Origin: Solirubrobacterales bacterium
GTDB taxonomy: Bacteria; Actinomycetota; Thermoleophilia; Solirubrobacterales; 70-9
NCBI GenBank assembly: GCA_019456285.1
Contig: VRUE01000018.1
Coordinates: 1 to 33,086, forward strand
Length of the DNA: 33,086 nt
Reading direction: 5' to 3'
Under the pieces are notes generated by a model that had not been told where the DNA came from, did not search any database, and saw nothing but the letters and a program-made list of their open reading frames with translations. A program made the translations under genes and the position numbers. Below are positions 10,802 through 17,956 of the stretch, in pieces (the stretch's first letter is position 1; every line of letters starts with the position of its first letter).

Positions 10802-11038
10802 ATGGCCGTCCCGAAGAGGAAAACTTCCAGCGCCCGCCGCGACAAGCGGCGGGCCACGCACAAGGCGGCGAAGCCGCGGCTCAACCGCTGCCCGCGCTGC
10901 CACAGCCCCCGTCTTCCGCACCGCGTCTGCCCCACCTGCGGCACCTACGCCGGGCGCGAGGTGATCAAGCACCCGATCGCCGAGGCCCCGGCGAGCCCCC
11001 CCGAGGTCGCGGCGGACACCCCCGAGACCGAGGAGTGA
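10802..11038 (+). CDS. rpmF: Large ribosomal subunit protein bL32
   Basis: A 50S subunit protein starting MAVPKRKTSSARRDKRR, the L32 signature. Zinc ligands are CPRCH and CPTCG. At 78 residues it is longer than usual (about 57-60) because of an acidic tail (PEVAADTPETEE), paralleling the acidic extension of L19 in this window. The rpmF-plsX junction overlaps (TGATG), the widely conserved arrangement linking ribosome and lipid synthesis. Confidence 0.95.
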   Translation: MAVPKRKTSSARRDKRRATHKAAKPRLNRCPRCHSPRLPHRVCPTCGTYAGREVIKHPIAEAPASPPEVAADTPETEE

Positions 11039-12078
11039 TGCCAGCCGGGCGCGGCGTGACCGTCGCCCTGGACGGCTTCGGGGCGGAGCGGGGCTTCGGC
11101 GTGCTCGCCGAGGGCGCCCGGCTGGCCGCTGCGGACGGGATACGCCTCCGGGTCTTCGGCCCACCGCGGGAGCTGGGCCTGGACGGGGTCGACGGAGTCG
11201 AGGTGATCCCGACCTCGGAGTGGGTCGGCAACGAAGACGACCCGGTGCCCGCCGTCCGCGCCGTGAAGGAGGTATCGGTGGTCCGGGCCGCCCGCGACGT
11301 CGCCGCAGGGCGGGCCGGCGCGATGGCCAGCCCCGGCTCGACCGGGGCGACGATGGCCGCCGCGACCTTCGGCCTGCGGCGGCTGCGCGGCGTCCAGCGC
11401 CCCGCCCTCGCGGTGCGGCTACCCGTCCCCGGCAAGCCGGTGCTCTTCCTCGACGCCGGCGCCAACGTCGAGGTCCGCGCCCAGCACCTGGTCCAGTTCG
11501 CCTTCCTCGGCGCCGCCTTCAGCGAGGCGGTGCTCGGGGTCGAGCGCCCCCGGGTCGGGTTGCTCTCGGTCGGCGAGGAGGCCGGCAAGGGCAGGGAGGA
11601 GACCGTTGCCGCCCATGCGCTGCTCTCGGAAGCCGGGGGCATCGAGTTCAGCGGCAACGTCGAGGGCAGCGACCTGCCGGCCGGCGCCGCCGACGTGGTG
11701 GTCACCGACGGCTTCACCGGCAACGTCGCGCTGAAGCTGATGGAGGGGACGGCGCGCACGGTCACCGCGGCGATCCGCGACGCCGCCCGCTCCAACCCGC
11801 TCGCCGCCCTCGGCGGTCTGCTGATGCGCCCCGCCCTCGGCGGCCTGCGCCGCGAGCTGCATCCCGACACGACCGGCGGCGCGATCCTGCTCGGGCTGCG
11901 GAGCATCGCGGTCGTCGGCCACGGCAGCTCGGGGGCGGAGGGGATCGCGAACGCGGTGCGGCTGGCGGCGCGCTGCGCCGAGGTCGACGCGGCGGGTCGC
12001 ACGGCGGCGCTGCTGCGCGAGGGCGGAGTGACCCGCGGCTCGCTCGCGGCGGGTCGCAGGGACGGCGTCGACGCGTGA
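11038..12078 (+). CDS. plsX: Phosphate acyltransferase PlsX
   Basis: PlsX converts acyl-ACP to acyl-phosphate, the donor for the first acylation of glycerol 3-phosphate. Family features are SPGSTGATMAAATFGLRR (corresponding to the usual GNTGA segment), DAGANVEVRAQHLVQFAFLG, NVEGSDLPAGAADVVVTDGFTGNVALKLMEG split over the active-site region, and GSSGAEGIANAVRLA near the end. The N-terminus reads VALDGFGAERGF, where most PlsX proteins have DAMGGDxxP, a marked divergence. 346 residues is normal. ATG 11038 was chosen over GTG 11035 for better spacing from GAGGAG (11029-11034). Confidence 0.88.
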   Translation: MPAGRGVTVALDGFGAERGFGVLAEGARLAAADGIRLRVFGPPRELGLDGVDGVEVIPTSEWVGNEDDPVPAVRAVKEVSVVRAARDVAAGRAGAMASPGSTGATMAAATFGLRRLRGVQRPALAVRLPVPGKPVLFLDAGANVEVRAQHLVQFAFLGAAFSEAVLGVERPRVGLLSVGEEAGKGREETVAAHALLSEAGGIEFSGNVEGSDLPAGAADVVVTDGFTGNVALKLMEGTARTVTAAIRDAARSNPLAALGGLLMRPALGGLRRELHPDTTGGAILLGLRSIAVVGHGSSGAEGIANAVRLAARCAEVDAAGRTAALLREGGVTRGSLAAGRRDGVDA

Positions 12079-12097: not shown

Positions 12098-12343
12098 ATG
12101 ACCCGCGACGAAGTCCTCGCCCTGGTCCGCGACCACCTCGCCGAGGAGCTCGAGGTCGACGCTGCGCAGATCGGCGAGCAGACCCGCCTCAAGGAGGATC
12201 TCGACGCCGACTCCCTGGACCTGTACGAGCTGGTGATGGAGCTGGAGGACCGCTACGGGATCTCGGTCTCCGAGGAGCAGGCGGCGCGGATCGAGACGGT
12301 CGGCGACGCGGTCGCATTCGTCCTGGAGCACGCTCCGGCGTGA
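12098..12343 (+). CDS. acpP: Acyl carrier protein
   Basis: An 81-residue acidic four-helix carrier. The phosphopantetheine attachment serine is in DADSLDLYELVMELEDRYG, the DSL motif. It carries growing acyl chains in fatty-acid synthesis and supplies substrate to PlsX, encoded just upstream. Start chosen at ATG 12098 (MTRDEVLALV), which has GGGGA 5 nt upstream; an in-frame ATG at 12086 would add MGNP with no usable spacing. The stop overlaps the GTG of rnc by 4 nt. Confidence 0.93.
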   Translation: MTRDEVLALVRDHLAEELEVDAAQIGEQTRLKEDLDADSLDLYELVMELEDRYGISVSEEQAARIETVGDAVAFVLEHAPA

Positions 12344-13017
12344 GCGTCGCGGCGCTCGCGGCGCTGGTCGGGGACCTCCCCGGCGGCCTGCGGCGCCAGG
12401 CCCTCACCCATTCCTCCTGGACCGAGGACCGGCTGGAGTCCTTCGAGCGCCTCGCCTACCTCGGCGACAGCGTGCTCGCGCTCGCCGTCGCGTCCGATCT
12501 GTACAGGCGCTTCCCGGAGGTCGACGCCGGCGGCCTCACCAAGATCCACAACCAGGCGGTCAGCGGCGCCTCCTGCACCGAGGTCGGCCGCCTGCTCGGC
12601 GTGCCGGAGATGCTGCAGGCGGCCGAGCCGGACGGCGAGCTGGCGATCCCCGCCGGGATCCTGCTCAGCGGCGCCCGGCCGCTGCCCGAGGTGACCGAGG
12701 CGCTGATCGGCGCCTGCCACCTCGCCTTCGGCTTCGAGCCCGCCGCGGCCGCGGTCAGCGCCGCGTTCGAGCCGCAGATCGAGTGGGCGGCTGAGCACCC
12801 GATCGACTTCAAGTCCGCGCTGCAGGAGCTGCTCGCGCGTCACAAGGCGCGGGTAAGCTACGACGTGATCGCCGAGTCCGGCCCGGCGCACCGGCGCACC
12901 TTCGAGGTGGCGGCGGTCGTCGACTCCGAGCGGGTCGGGAAGGGGATCGGCCGAAGCAAGAAGGCTGCCGAGCAGGCGGCGGCCGAGCAGGCGCTGAAGC
13001 GGCTCGGGGACAGCTAA
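12340..13017 (+). CDS. rnc: Ribonuclease III with atypical active site
   Basis: RNase III cleaves double-stranded RNA in rRNA precursors and other transcripts. The 225-residue protein has an RNase III domain (ALTHSSW, then ERLAYLGDSVL, then TEALIG) and a full C-terminal dsRNA-binding domain (DFKSALQELLARHK to KKAAEQAAAEQALKRL). Compared with E. coli numbering, E38, D45 and E117 are kept. E41 is Ala (ERLAYLGD for ERLEFLGD), E65 is Ala (VDAGG for VDEGD) and D114 is Glu (PEVTEALIG for ADTVEALIG). Mg coordination may thus be altered. GTG start overlapping acpP. The gene often found between rnc and smc (mutM) is absent. Confidence 0.9.
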   Translation: MSVAALAALVGDLPGGLRRQALTHSSWTEDRLESFERLAYLGDSVLALAVASDLYRRFPEVDAGGLTKIHNQAVSGASCTEVGRLLGVPEMLQAAEPDGELAIPAGILLSGARPLPEVTEALIGACHLAFGFEPAAAAVSAAFEPQIEWAAEHPIDFKSALQELLARHKARVSYDVIAESGPAHRRTFEVAAVVDSERVGKGIGRSKKAAEQAAAEQALKRLGDS

Positions 13018-13140: not shown

Positions 13141-15546
13141 ATGTATCTGAGATCGATCGAGCTGAAGGGGTTCAAGTCGTTCCCCGAGCGGGCGAAGCTG
13201 GAGTTCTCGCCCGGCGTCAGCGTGATCGTCGGCCCCAACGGCTCGGGCAAGTCGAACATCACCGACGCGGTGCTCTGGGCGCTGGGCGAGCAGAGCCCCA
13301 CCGCGATCCGCGGCGCCTCGATGCAGGACGTGATCTCGGCCGGCGGCAAGGGCGTCGGGCAGCGCCGCGCCGCGGAAGTCGAGGTCGTGATCGACAACTC
13401 CGAGGGCCGCGCCGCCTCCGAGCTCTCCGAGATCTCCGTGCGGCGCCGCCTCGACCGCTCCGGCGAGGGGACCTACCGGCTGAACGGCGCTCGCTGCCGC
13501 CTCGTCGACGTGCTCGAGGTCCTCTCCGACGCCAACCTGGGGCGCGAGATGCACTCCGTGATCAGCCAGGGCCGGATCGAGTCGATCGTCCACTCGAACC
13601 CGCGCGAGCGGCGGCTGTTGATCGAGGAGGCGGCGGGGCTGGGCAAGCACCGCAAGCGCCGCCGCCGCGCCGAGCTGAAGCTGCACGCGACGCGCGACAA
13701 CCTCGATCGGGCGCTCGACCTGGAGCGCGAGGCGCGGGCCCGGCTGCGGCCGCTGAAGCGCCAGGCGCAGGCAGCCGAGCTGGGGGCGCGGATCGAGCGC
13801 GAGGAGCTGGGGCTGCGCGGTCGGCTCGTTGCCGAGGAGCTGCGCTTTGACGAGGACCGCGCCCAGCTCGCCGAGCGGGCAGCCGAGCGGGCACGGGCGG
13901 CGCGGGCCGAGGTCGAGCGGCGCCTCGCCGAGGTGAGCGAGCGGCGGCGAGCCGCCGAGGAGCGCTTCGCCGCCCGCGACCGCGAGCGCACCCGGGCATG
14001 GGGCCTGCTGACCAAGCTGGGCGGCGAGCAGCAGCGGATCGCGGTGCGCGCCGCAGGCCTCGCCGATCGCGAGGGCGAGCTGGCGGCGGGCCTGGAGGCG
14101 CTGCGCGCCGAGCTGGGCCCGCTGACCCTGGGCGTCGGCGCGGGAAGCGCCTCGGCCGAGCGGGCCCGCAAGCTCGAGGAGGAGCTGGGCGAGATCGAGG
14201 CCGGCCTCTCCGGGGCGTCCGACGGCCTCGCCCGCGCCCGTTCGGCTGAGGCCGCCGAGCCGGCGTGCGAGAAGGCGCTGGGGGCGGTGCGAAGCGGCGC
14301 CGAGCGGGCCTCCCGGCACGCCCGCCGGGCGGAGGGGCTGCTCGGCGAGCGCCACCGCGAGGCGCTGCGCAGGCGGGTGGCCGCCGGTGAGGAGCTGCTG
14401 GAGGAGGTGCGCGCCGCCGCCGCCGCGGTGACCGCGGTCGAGGCGGCGATCCGCGCCCGGGTCGAGCGAGCCGAGGGTAGGGTGGTCGGCGGCGACGGCG
14501 ATGGCGACGAGATCGCCGAGGAGATGCGCGCCTGCTCGCAGCGTGAGTCCGAGCTGCAGGTGGAGATGAAGGCCGCATCCGACAAGCTGACCGAGGCGGA
14601 GGTCGAAGCCGCCCACCGCGGCGACCGCCGCGCCGAGGCGGCCAAGGAGCTGGCCTCGATCGCCGCGCGCCTCGGCGAGGAGATCGGCCCGGCCGAGCAG
14701 CCGCTGAGCGAGGAGGAGCGCACCGGGATCGACCGCCGGCTGGAGCGGCTGGAGCGCCGCCGCGCCCAGATCGGCCCGGTCAACCCGCTCGCCGGGCAGG
14801 AGTACGAGGAGGCGCGCGAGCACGTCGAGTCGCTGCGGATCCAGCGCCAGGACACCGAGCGCGGGATGCGCGAGCTGGAGGCGCTGATCCGCGAGATCGA
14901 GCGCGAGATCGAGCGCGCCTTCGAGCAGGCCTTCGAGGCGACCGCCAAGAACTTCGAGGAGATGATCGAGCACCTCTTCCCGGGCGGGCGCGGGCGGCTG
15001 CGCCGCATCAGCCTGCGGCCCGTCCGCGACGCCGAGGAGGCGGGCGGCGAGGACTCGGACGAGGAGGACGAGGAGCGCGAGGAGCTCGGGGTCGAGATCG
15101 AGGTCACTCCGGCCGGCAAGTCGACCCGGAGGCTCTCACTGCTCTCCGGCGGTGAGAAGTCGCTGGTCGCGCTGGCCTTCGTCTTCGCCGTCTTCCTCGC
15201 CCGCCCCTGTCCCTTCTACATCCTCGACGAGGTCGAGGCGGCGCTCGACGACGCCAACATCGATCGCTTCCTGCAGCTGATCCGCCGCTTCTCCAGCCGC
15301 GCCCAGTTCGTGATCGTCACCCACCAGAAACGGACGATGGACGCCGCTGACGTGCTCTACGGCATCAGCATGGGCGGCGACGGGGTCACCAAGGTCGTAT
15401 CCCGCCGCCTCCCCCGCGAGGTGGAGGCCGCCGAGGAGGGCCCGCCGCCCTTCGCGGGGATCGCGGCCGGCGACGAGGACGCAGACCCGCAGGCCGCCGC
15501 AGCCCCCGGCGGGGTGGCGGCGCCGGGATCGGCCGAGGCCGCGTAG
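13141..15546 (+). CDS. smc: Short, apparently hinge-less SMC chromosome segregation ATPase
   Basis: The N-terminal head has MYLRSIELKGFKSF and Walker A GPNGSGKSN at residues 31-39. The C-terminal head has the ABC signature LSLLSGGEK near 665 and Walker B FYILDEVEAALDD near 690-705. SMC dimers compact and segregate chromosomes. This one has only 801 residues against about 1,150-1,200 normally. The segment between heads (about 170-600) is Glu/Arg/Ala coiled coil throughout; I see no globular hinge and no YExAxExALG motif. An acidic insert (EDSDEEDEEREE) precedes the signature, and the tail is Ala/Pro-rich. The frame is continuous and followed by ftsY as usual. GAGGA at 13128-13132 is the likely ribosome site. 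Confidence 0.88.
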   Translation: MYLRSIELKGFKSFPERAKLEFSPGVSVIVGPNGSGKSNITDAVLWALGEQSPTAIRGASMQDVISAGGKGVGQRRAAEVEVVIDNSEGRAASELSEISVRRRLDRSGEGTYRLNGARCRLVDVLEVLSDANLGREMHSVISQGRIESIVHSNPRERRLLIEEAAGLGKHRKRRRRAELKLHATRDNLDRALDLEREARARLRPLKRQAQAAELGARIEREELGLRGRLVAEELRFDEDRAQLAERAAERARAARAEVERRLAEVSERRRAAEERFAARDRERTRAWGLLTKLGGEQQRIAVRAAGLADREGELAAGLEALRAELGPLTLGVGAGSASAERARKLEEELGEIEAGLSGASDGLARARSAEAAEPACEKALGAVRSGAERASRHARRAEGLLGERHREALRRRVAAGEELLEEVRAAAAAVTAVEAAIRARVERAEGRVVGGDGDGDEIAEEMRACSQRESELQVEMKAASDKLTEAEVEAAHRGDRRAEAAKELASIAARLGEEIGPAEQPLSEEERTGIDRRLERLERRRAQIGPVNPLAGQEYEEAREHVESLRIQRQDTERGMRELEALIREIEREIERAFEQAFEATAKNFEEMIEHLFPGGRGRLRRISLRPVRDAEEAGGEDSDEEDEEREELGVEIEVTPAGKSTRRLSLLSGGEKSLVALAFVFAVFLARPCPFYILDEVEAALDDANIDRFLQLIRRFSSRAQFVIVTHQKRTMDAADVLYGISMGGDGVTKVVSRRLPREVEAAEEGPPPFAGIAAGDEDADPQAAAAPGGVAAPGSAEAA

Positions 15547-15569: not shown

Positions 15570-16562
15570 ATGCCGACCGCCTGGGAGGAGATCCTCGACC
15601 TCGGCACGCGCCGGGCCGCTGCGCCCCCGCCGCAGGCCGAGGAGGAGCGGCGCGGGGTGTTCCGCCGCCTGCGCGAGAGCCTCTCGAAGAGCCGCCGCGC
15701 CCTCGCCGAGGAGATCTCCGCCAGCCTCTTCGACCGGATCGACGAGCAGGCATGGGAGCGGTTGGAGGAGGCGCTGATCCTCGCCGACGCCGGCGTCCCC
15801 ACCACCGCCGCGGTGGTCGAGCGGCTCGAGCACGAGGTCGAGGCCGGCATGGTCTCGGCCGACGGCGAGGCGGTGCACGAGCGGCTGATCGAGATCCTCG
15901 CCGAGGTCGCCTCGACCGGGCGCGGGCCGATCGACCTCAGCGGCGAGCCCGCCGTGTTGCTGATGGTCGGCGTCAACGGCACCGGCAAGACGACGACGAT
16001 CGGCAAGATCGCCTGGCACCTCTCCAAGGAGCTCGGCCTCTCCGTCGTCCTCGCCGCCGCCGACACCTACCGCGCCGCCGCCGCCGAGCAGCTTGCCGAG
16101 TGGGCCGAGCGGGCCGACGCCGACCTGATCCGCTCGGTTCCCGGCGGCGACCCCGGGGCGGTCGCCTTCGACGCGATCGAGGCCGCCCGCGCCCGCGGCG
16201 CCGATGTGGTGATCGTCGATACCGCCGGCCGTCTCCACACCCAGGGCAACCTGATGGACGAGCTGGCCAAGGTGCGCCGGGTGATCGGCAAGCAGCTCCC
16301 GGGCGCCCCGCACGAGACGCTGATCTCGATCGACGCGACCACCGGCCAGAACGGGCTGCGCCAGGCGAAGGTCTTCTCCGACGCGGTCGAGGTCGACGGG
16401 GTCGTCCTCACCAAGCTCGACGGGACCGCGAAGGGCGGGATCGTGCTGGCGATCGCCAACGAGCTGGGCATCCCGGTGAAGCTGATCGGCACCGGCGAGT
16501 CGCTCGAGGACCTGCGCCCGTTCGACCCCGCCGACTTCGCGCGGGCCCTTCTGTCCGAGTAG
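15570..16562 (+). CDS. ftsY: Signal recognition particle receptor FtsY
   Basis: The SRP receptor GTPase docks ribosome-SRP complexes at the membrane. In 330 residues it has a short charged N-terminal region, the NG domain's four-helix N part (residues about 30-115) and the G domain. G-domain motifs are GVNGTGKTTTIGK (G1), ADTYRAAA (G2), DTAGRLHTQ (G3), TKLDGTAKGG (G4) and GTGESLEDLRPFD (closing loop). There is no long acidic A domain or transmembrane segment, as in many actinobacterial and firmicute FtsY proteins. It lies in the conserved smc-ftsY-ffh cluster. Confidence 0.95.
   Translation: MPTAWEEILDLGTRRAAAPPPQAEEERRGVFRRLRESLSKSRRALAEEISASLFDRIDEQAWERLEEALILADAGVPTTAAVVERLEHEVEAGMVSADGEAVHERLIEILAEVASTGRGPIDLSGEPAVLLMVGVNGTGKTTTIGKIAWHLSKELGLSVVLAAADTYRAAAAEQLAEWAERADADLIRSVPGGDPGAVAFDAIEAARARGADVVIVDTAGRLHTQGNLMDELAKVRRVIGKQLPGAPHETLISIDATTGQNGLRQAKVFSDAVEVDGVVLTKLDGTAKGGIVLAIANELGIPVKLIGTGESLEDLRPFDPADFARALLSE

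Positions 16563-16591: not shown

Positions 16592-17956
<1,365 letters not shown>

Follow-up and report, generated by a model that had tools for sequence, protein, structure and literature searches.

Does an SMC motor need its hinge? The hinge is regarded as the dimerisation domain of all SMC proteins, and the question is raised by an smc gene on contig VRUE01000018.1 of a Solirubrobacterales bacterium (assembly GCA_019456285.1), analysed here in a stretch of 33,086 nucleotides (the window). Its product, P0001, is the sole SMC of the source genome (a 2.1-Mb draft in 146 contigs, 92.5% complete) and is, judged by sequence, an Smc by descent without its defining hinge domain. A first-pass annotation of the window had described two complete ATPase heads in an unbroken frame and no recognisable hinge between them, and our analysis agrees on all three points. 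The parts of P0001 are as follows:

13141..15546, + strand: smc, encoding a hinge-less SMC of 801 residues (P0001); open frame with ATG start
13141..13641, + strand: N-terminal ATPase head, residues 1-167; Walker A GPNGSGKSN at 31-39, Q-loop Q143
13642..14127, + strand: N-terminal arm helix, residues 168-329; collinear with its counterpart in the full-length relatives
14128..14370, + strand: tip at the former hinge position, residues 330-410; loop 330-337, helix 338-367, turn 368-372 and the start of helix 373-449
14311..14370, + strand: conserved tip patch, residues 391-410, RxARRxExLLGxRxxxxLxxR
14371..14976, + strand: C-terminal arm, residues 411-612; homologous to the corresponding arm of the full-length relatives
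14977..15420, + strand: C-terminal ATPase head, residues 613-760; signature LSGGE at 668-672, Walker B YILDE at 693-697, H-loop H728

Intact heads and no hinge

Residues 1-212 and about 536-760 of P0001 aligned end to end with Smc heads of solved structure (3zgx, 5xg3, 5h68) at every ATPase motif, the Walker B stretch reading YILDEVEAALD, and as far as alignment can tell both heads are complete and conserved. The protein also scored 606.5 bits against the NCBIfam model SMC_prok_B (TIGR02168), above the curated cut-off of 567.35.

A search of P0001 with the hinge model PF06470 gave no match, even at E = 10, nor was one found in any of 24 aligned short-form sequences; the domain is present in 26 of 28 longer relatives (relatives were found by sequence and are metagenome-assembled genomes, MAGs, labelled Solirubrobacterales and other Actinomycetota). 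A hidden or split hinge was ruled out by a six-frame search of the whole source genome, which did not find PF06470 (12 of 14 control genomes were positive), and six frames of G005, a relative assembled as a single contig, likewise had no match. A hidden Markov model (HMM) of the hinge, trained on hinge-bearing actinobacterial relatives and applied to 154 actinobacterial SMCs, found a hinge in 102 (weakest E = 1.4e-14) and gave no match in 52 (all E > 1; P0001, E = 50). One of these 52, L226 of family f42, has a hinge that is too diverged for the actinobacterial model and whose pattern is recognisable by eye; it was left out of the hinge-less count, which then stands at 51 among the 154, an uneven sample from which no frequency is claimed.

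The spacing of the arms leads to the same result. In block HMM comparisons with full-length relatives, short-form residues 210-330 matched residues 210-328 of the hinge-bearing L067 (E = 4e-17), residues 405-455 matched the full-length C arm at about 700-738 (best E = 8.5e-5) and residues 452-545 matched it at 739-830 (E = 1e-31), whereas residues 330-404, which separate the two arm homologies in P0001, had no significant homology to full-length forms. From these homologies it follows that about 370 residues, which made up the hinge and the outer portions of the two arms, have been lost, and that about 75 stand in their place; a hinge takes 150-200 residues, and there is therefore no room for one. 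Counted up to the predicted tip, the N-arm strand has about 200 residues; in hinge-bearing sisters it has about 280. The arms of P0001 come to about 0.6-0.7 of the usual length, close to the two-thirds that had been estimated at first pass. For comparison, the arm of Bacillus subtilis Smc has 344 residues (PMC5344682).

A conserved helical tip in place of the hinge

AlphaFold2 predicted helices only between the heads of P0001, and no compact hinge fold at residues 310-470. In the full-length model (24 sequences), the heads came out poorly, with an overall predicted template modelling score (pTM) of 0.33, and only the arm and tip were used; here the arm helices span residues 168-329 and 454-544/551-612, and the tip helices 338-367 and 373-449. 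Segment 290-470 modelled alone gave identical helices, with a mean predicted local distance difference test (pLDDT) score of 86.7 and a pTM of 0.61. By our reading of the lengths in these models, the N arm would end at about residue 329, a loop and a 30-residue helix would lead to the turn at 368-372, and one long helix would run back to the C arm.

The tip region 381-410 is a peak of conservation, with Jensen-Shannon (JS) scores of 0.59-0.62, whereas much of the neighbouring coil scores 0.40-0.47, and the patch is largely retained in the most divergent members of the clade. In close pairs the patch has a ratio of nonsynonymous to synonymous substitution rates (dN/dS) of 0.07-0.26, and purifying selection is thereby shown. 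Foldseek searches with the tip returned generic helical hairpins and bundles alone and nothing specific (best E = 0.019), and with the full model the best matches were SMC-family heads and coils only. A helical-wheel check of the tip helices favoured neither a two-helix hairpin nor a four-helix bundle.

Sister genera show loss of the hinge

The first-pass annotation had treated P0001 as an odd single protein. It represents instead a clade-wide, single-copy and recurrent state in which the whole of ScpAB and ParABS is kept. A survey of SMC lengths in related genomes found the hinge-less short form (type A) as 28 distinct sequences, drawn from numerous assemblies and environments, in eight genera of one GTDB family (g1, g2, g4, g5, g7, g10, g11 and g12), whose genomes have no hinge anywhere except for two sub-threshold matches outside smc. 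The sister genera g3, g8 and g9 of the same family retain a hinge-bearing Smc of 1070-1090 residues. In a tree built from the heads, the type A forms and the full-length forms of g3, g8 and g9 make up one supported group (100/99), and a single origin of the short form was not rejected (approximately unbiased test, p-AU 0.31). The hinge-bearing sister genera show loss of the hinge and not paralogy. In two MAGs (L012/L053 and L018/L059) the type A smc is interrupted near the C-terminal head by an apparent frame change, which may be real or an assembly error.

Recurrence across Actinomycetota

Hinge-less SMCs occur in several other families. Type B, in family f2 (L101, L108, L140), comprises proteins of 936-949 residues; family f16 (L182-L191) has hinge-less SMCs of 736-790 residues in ten of the ten genomes read, which are 1.3-2.1 Mb in size with a GC content of 31-40%; and families f34 and f41 have forms of 885-893 and 916 residues, respectively. 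The longest, at 1017-1041 residues, are those of family f13 (L199, L200, L220, L221, L236, L237 and L241; seven genomes). The starred branches of the heads tree require at least five switches between the hinge-bearing and the hinge-less state, f16 and f34, which join on long branches, being counted as one, and a single loss for all hinge-less forms was rejected, types A and B as one clade having a p-AU of 7e-40. On this tree we found that the hinge has been lost independently at least five times in Actinomycetota. The tip sequence is very different between the independent lineages.

Three further observations concern the arms and tips of these families. Type B proteins have, at the former hinge position, a segment that looks helical and in which tryptophans are conserved (WQKSWTDLRQL, WAETWKDVRRV). 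The f13 proteins have a near full-length coiled coil, so that their hinge was lost without strong shortening of the arms. Conversely, the SMCs of 824-890 residues in family f7 (L113-L135, L143; same class), candidates for hinge loss by their length, were rejected because they retain the hinge, which starts near residue 374-407 on very short arms; the family also has forms of 1118-1184 residues, and is a case of arm shortening without hinge loss.

Retained partners and locus

The source genome encodes ScpA (241 residues) and ScpB in adjacent genes, together with ParA and ParB. A search for partners and for a second SMC had been suggested at first pass; the partners were found, and a second SMC was not. 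The only other weak match in the genome (C28, E = 8.5e-5), examined as a possible paralogue, is probably UvrA, because of the comparison with the PDB matches of the P0001 search; it is one of a set of frames of about 1000 residues that are weakly matched in most relatives too. Of 41 relatives, 39 have ScpB, as do 20 of the 21 genomes that we sampled in the other hinge-less lineages. Allowing up to one mismatch, only one parS-like site was found in the source genome, GTTTCACGTGGAAC, in the gap between yidC and dnaA at L242:7973 (G000:C82:16972-16985); in the genus-mate G002 a parS-like site likewise lies between yidC and dnaA, and ParA directly adjoins ParB.

The gene order at the locus is plsX-rnc-smc-ftsY-ffh, within which rnc-smc-ftsY-ffh is the usual order:

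11035..12078, + strand: plsX, phosphate acyltransferase
12340..13017, + strand: rnc, ribonuclease III; 152 bits, just below the NCBIfam cut-off of 166, in a fitting position
15570..16562, + strand: ftsY, signal recognition particle (SRP) receptor
16592..17956, + strand: ffh, SRP protein

A probable motor reduced to its core

With moderate confidence, we regard P0001 as a housekeeping Smc-ScpAB motor that has been reduced to its core and whose dimer is closed by the arm tips. Its ancestor would have been an ordinary hinge-bearing Smc from which an in-frame loss removed the hinge together with the outermost third of the arms. ParB at parS near dnaA would load the hinge-less Smc-ScpAB, and ATP-driven engagement of the heads, together with the ScpA/ScpB bridge, would move the DNA. 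Each chain would carry a short helical hairpin at its arm tip, and the dimer would be closed by the pairing of two such hairpins, probably in a small bundle of helices centred on the RRxExLLGxR patch; the hinge channel and the hinge-gated bypass of obstacles would have been given up.

Two engineered systems provide a background for this proposal. In B. subtilis Smc, the hinge could be swapped for the unrelated zinc hook of Rad50 with normal growth, the fold of the dimerisation domain thus not being critical (PMC5344682). Akin to P0001, this chimera does without the Smc hinge fold, but it is engineered and closed by a known dimer module, whereas the natural tip has no CxxC. Similarly, a Wadjet core without the elbow-to-hinge region continues to extrude DNA provided that its ring is closed, and loses obstacle bypass (PMC12647877); it resembles P0001 in that the outer arm and hinge are removed and the core retained, and differs in being engineered, held by a disulfide and derived from another SMC family (JetC).

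Several points weigh against a tip-closed motor. Both the contact between tips and the motor function of the hinge-less members are things that we infer; the conservation of the patch could reflect packing within one chain, where the hairpin would lie on the end of the N arm; the full-length model predicts the heads poorly; and arms of this length may or may not suit a function of the B. subtilis type.

The main rival, which we consider possible but rather unlikely, is an open tweezer whose tips do not dimerise and whose chains are joined only by head engagement and the ScpA-ScpB bridge, possibly with the arms lying side by side as rods. The great difference in tip sequence between independent hinge-less lineages fits such a loss of constraint, and the tip has no known dimerisation fold, its Foldseek matches being generic hairpins. 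On the other hand, within the clade the patch is strongly conserved, beyond the needs of a mere turn, and the hinge-less Wadjet core is inactive once its ring is opened (PMC12647877). That P0001 has left chromosome organisation for another task, repair for example, seems improbable to us: a changed function was raised for marine hinge-less SMCs (PMC12153180), but P0001 is the only SMC of its genome, lies at the canonical locus, scores as an SMC_prok_B equivalog and is accompanied by ScpA, ScpB, ParB and parS. We give very little credence to a hinge that is present but too diverged, or that is supplied in trans by another gene; the L226 hinge does escape the HMM, yet it is visible by eye, and in P0001 the roughly 75 residues between the arm homologies are predicted to be all helical, while neither the source genome nor G005 has PF06470 in any frame. 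An assembly or deletion artefact in one MAG, conceivable for a window taken from a draft of 146 contigs, can be dismissed as next to impossible, since 28 distinct sequences come from eight genera and many assemblies and environments, which also rules out chance.

Extended to the phylum, the tip-closed reading would mean that Smc has been cut down at least five times to a hinge-less motor, that its tips close the dimer in a new way, and that obstacle bypass was given up with arms short or becoming shorter; this wider proposal is tentative, and we put it a little below an even chance. A natural single-copy Smc that has repeatedly lost its hinge offers an independent test of whether the hinge is needed for the motor, and raises the questions of what closes the ring, whether loops are still extruded and how cells then deal with roadblocks. 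SMCs without a hinge channel tend towards longer arms (PMC12647877), and hinge loss accompanied by shorter arms, as here, runs contrary to that trend. With shorter arms, large obstacles should pass through the arm lumen less easily. Either these bacteria can do without obstacle bypass, or it is covered by another mechanism such as ParB-directed loading, the remaining known way of avoiding collisions.

Relation to known SMC systems

P0001 shares with canonical Smc-ScpAB (B. subtilis, TIGR02168) the heads, the head-proximal arms, the locus, ScpA/ScpB and ParB/parS, and the single copy, and differs from it in the missing hinge, the shorter arms and the helical tip. Rad50/SbcC and MukB are also SMC-like ATPases with other apex arrangements, and the first-pass annotation had offered both as analogies, which proved wrong or weak. 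A zinc-hook apex of the Rad50 kind is ruled out, CxxC being absent from P0001 and from all 51 hinge-less SMCs, and MukB has a small hinge of its own and other partners. P0001 scored at most 70.9 bits against the Rad50 family (cut-off 700), 37.1 bits against SbcC (478.5) and 60.6 bits against the archaea-specific SMC-related protein NF045487 (300), and no MukB family was present in its Pfam list or among its listed NCBIfam matches.

Hinge-less SMCs as a kind are already known from marine Actinobacteria, in which a cluster without CxxC was reported in June 2025, with paralogy, viral origin and an unknown lineage considered as its source (PMC12153180); we found no other natural hinge-less Smc in the open-access literature searched. 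Compared by description, the marine proteins have in common with P0001 the absence of hinge and zinc hook, a predicted structure of head and plain coiled coil, and the phylum, whereas they are gene-catalogue sequences and were described as a single monophyletic clade, with no genome neighbourhood given. New here are the Solirubrobacterales clade, its genome context, the sister forms that show loss, the replacement tip and the recurrence. The low-GC family f16 is a possible candidate for the marine clade, and the heads tree places several separate hinge-less lineages in Actinomycetota.
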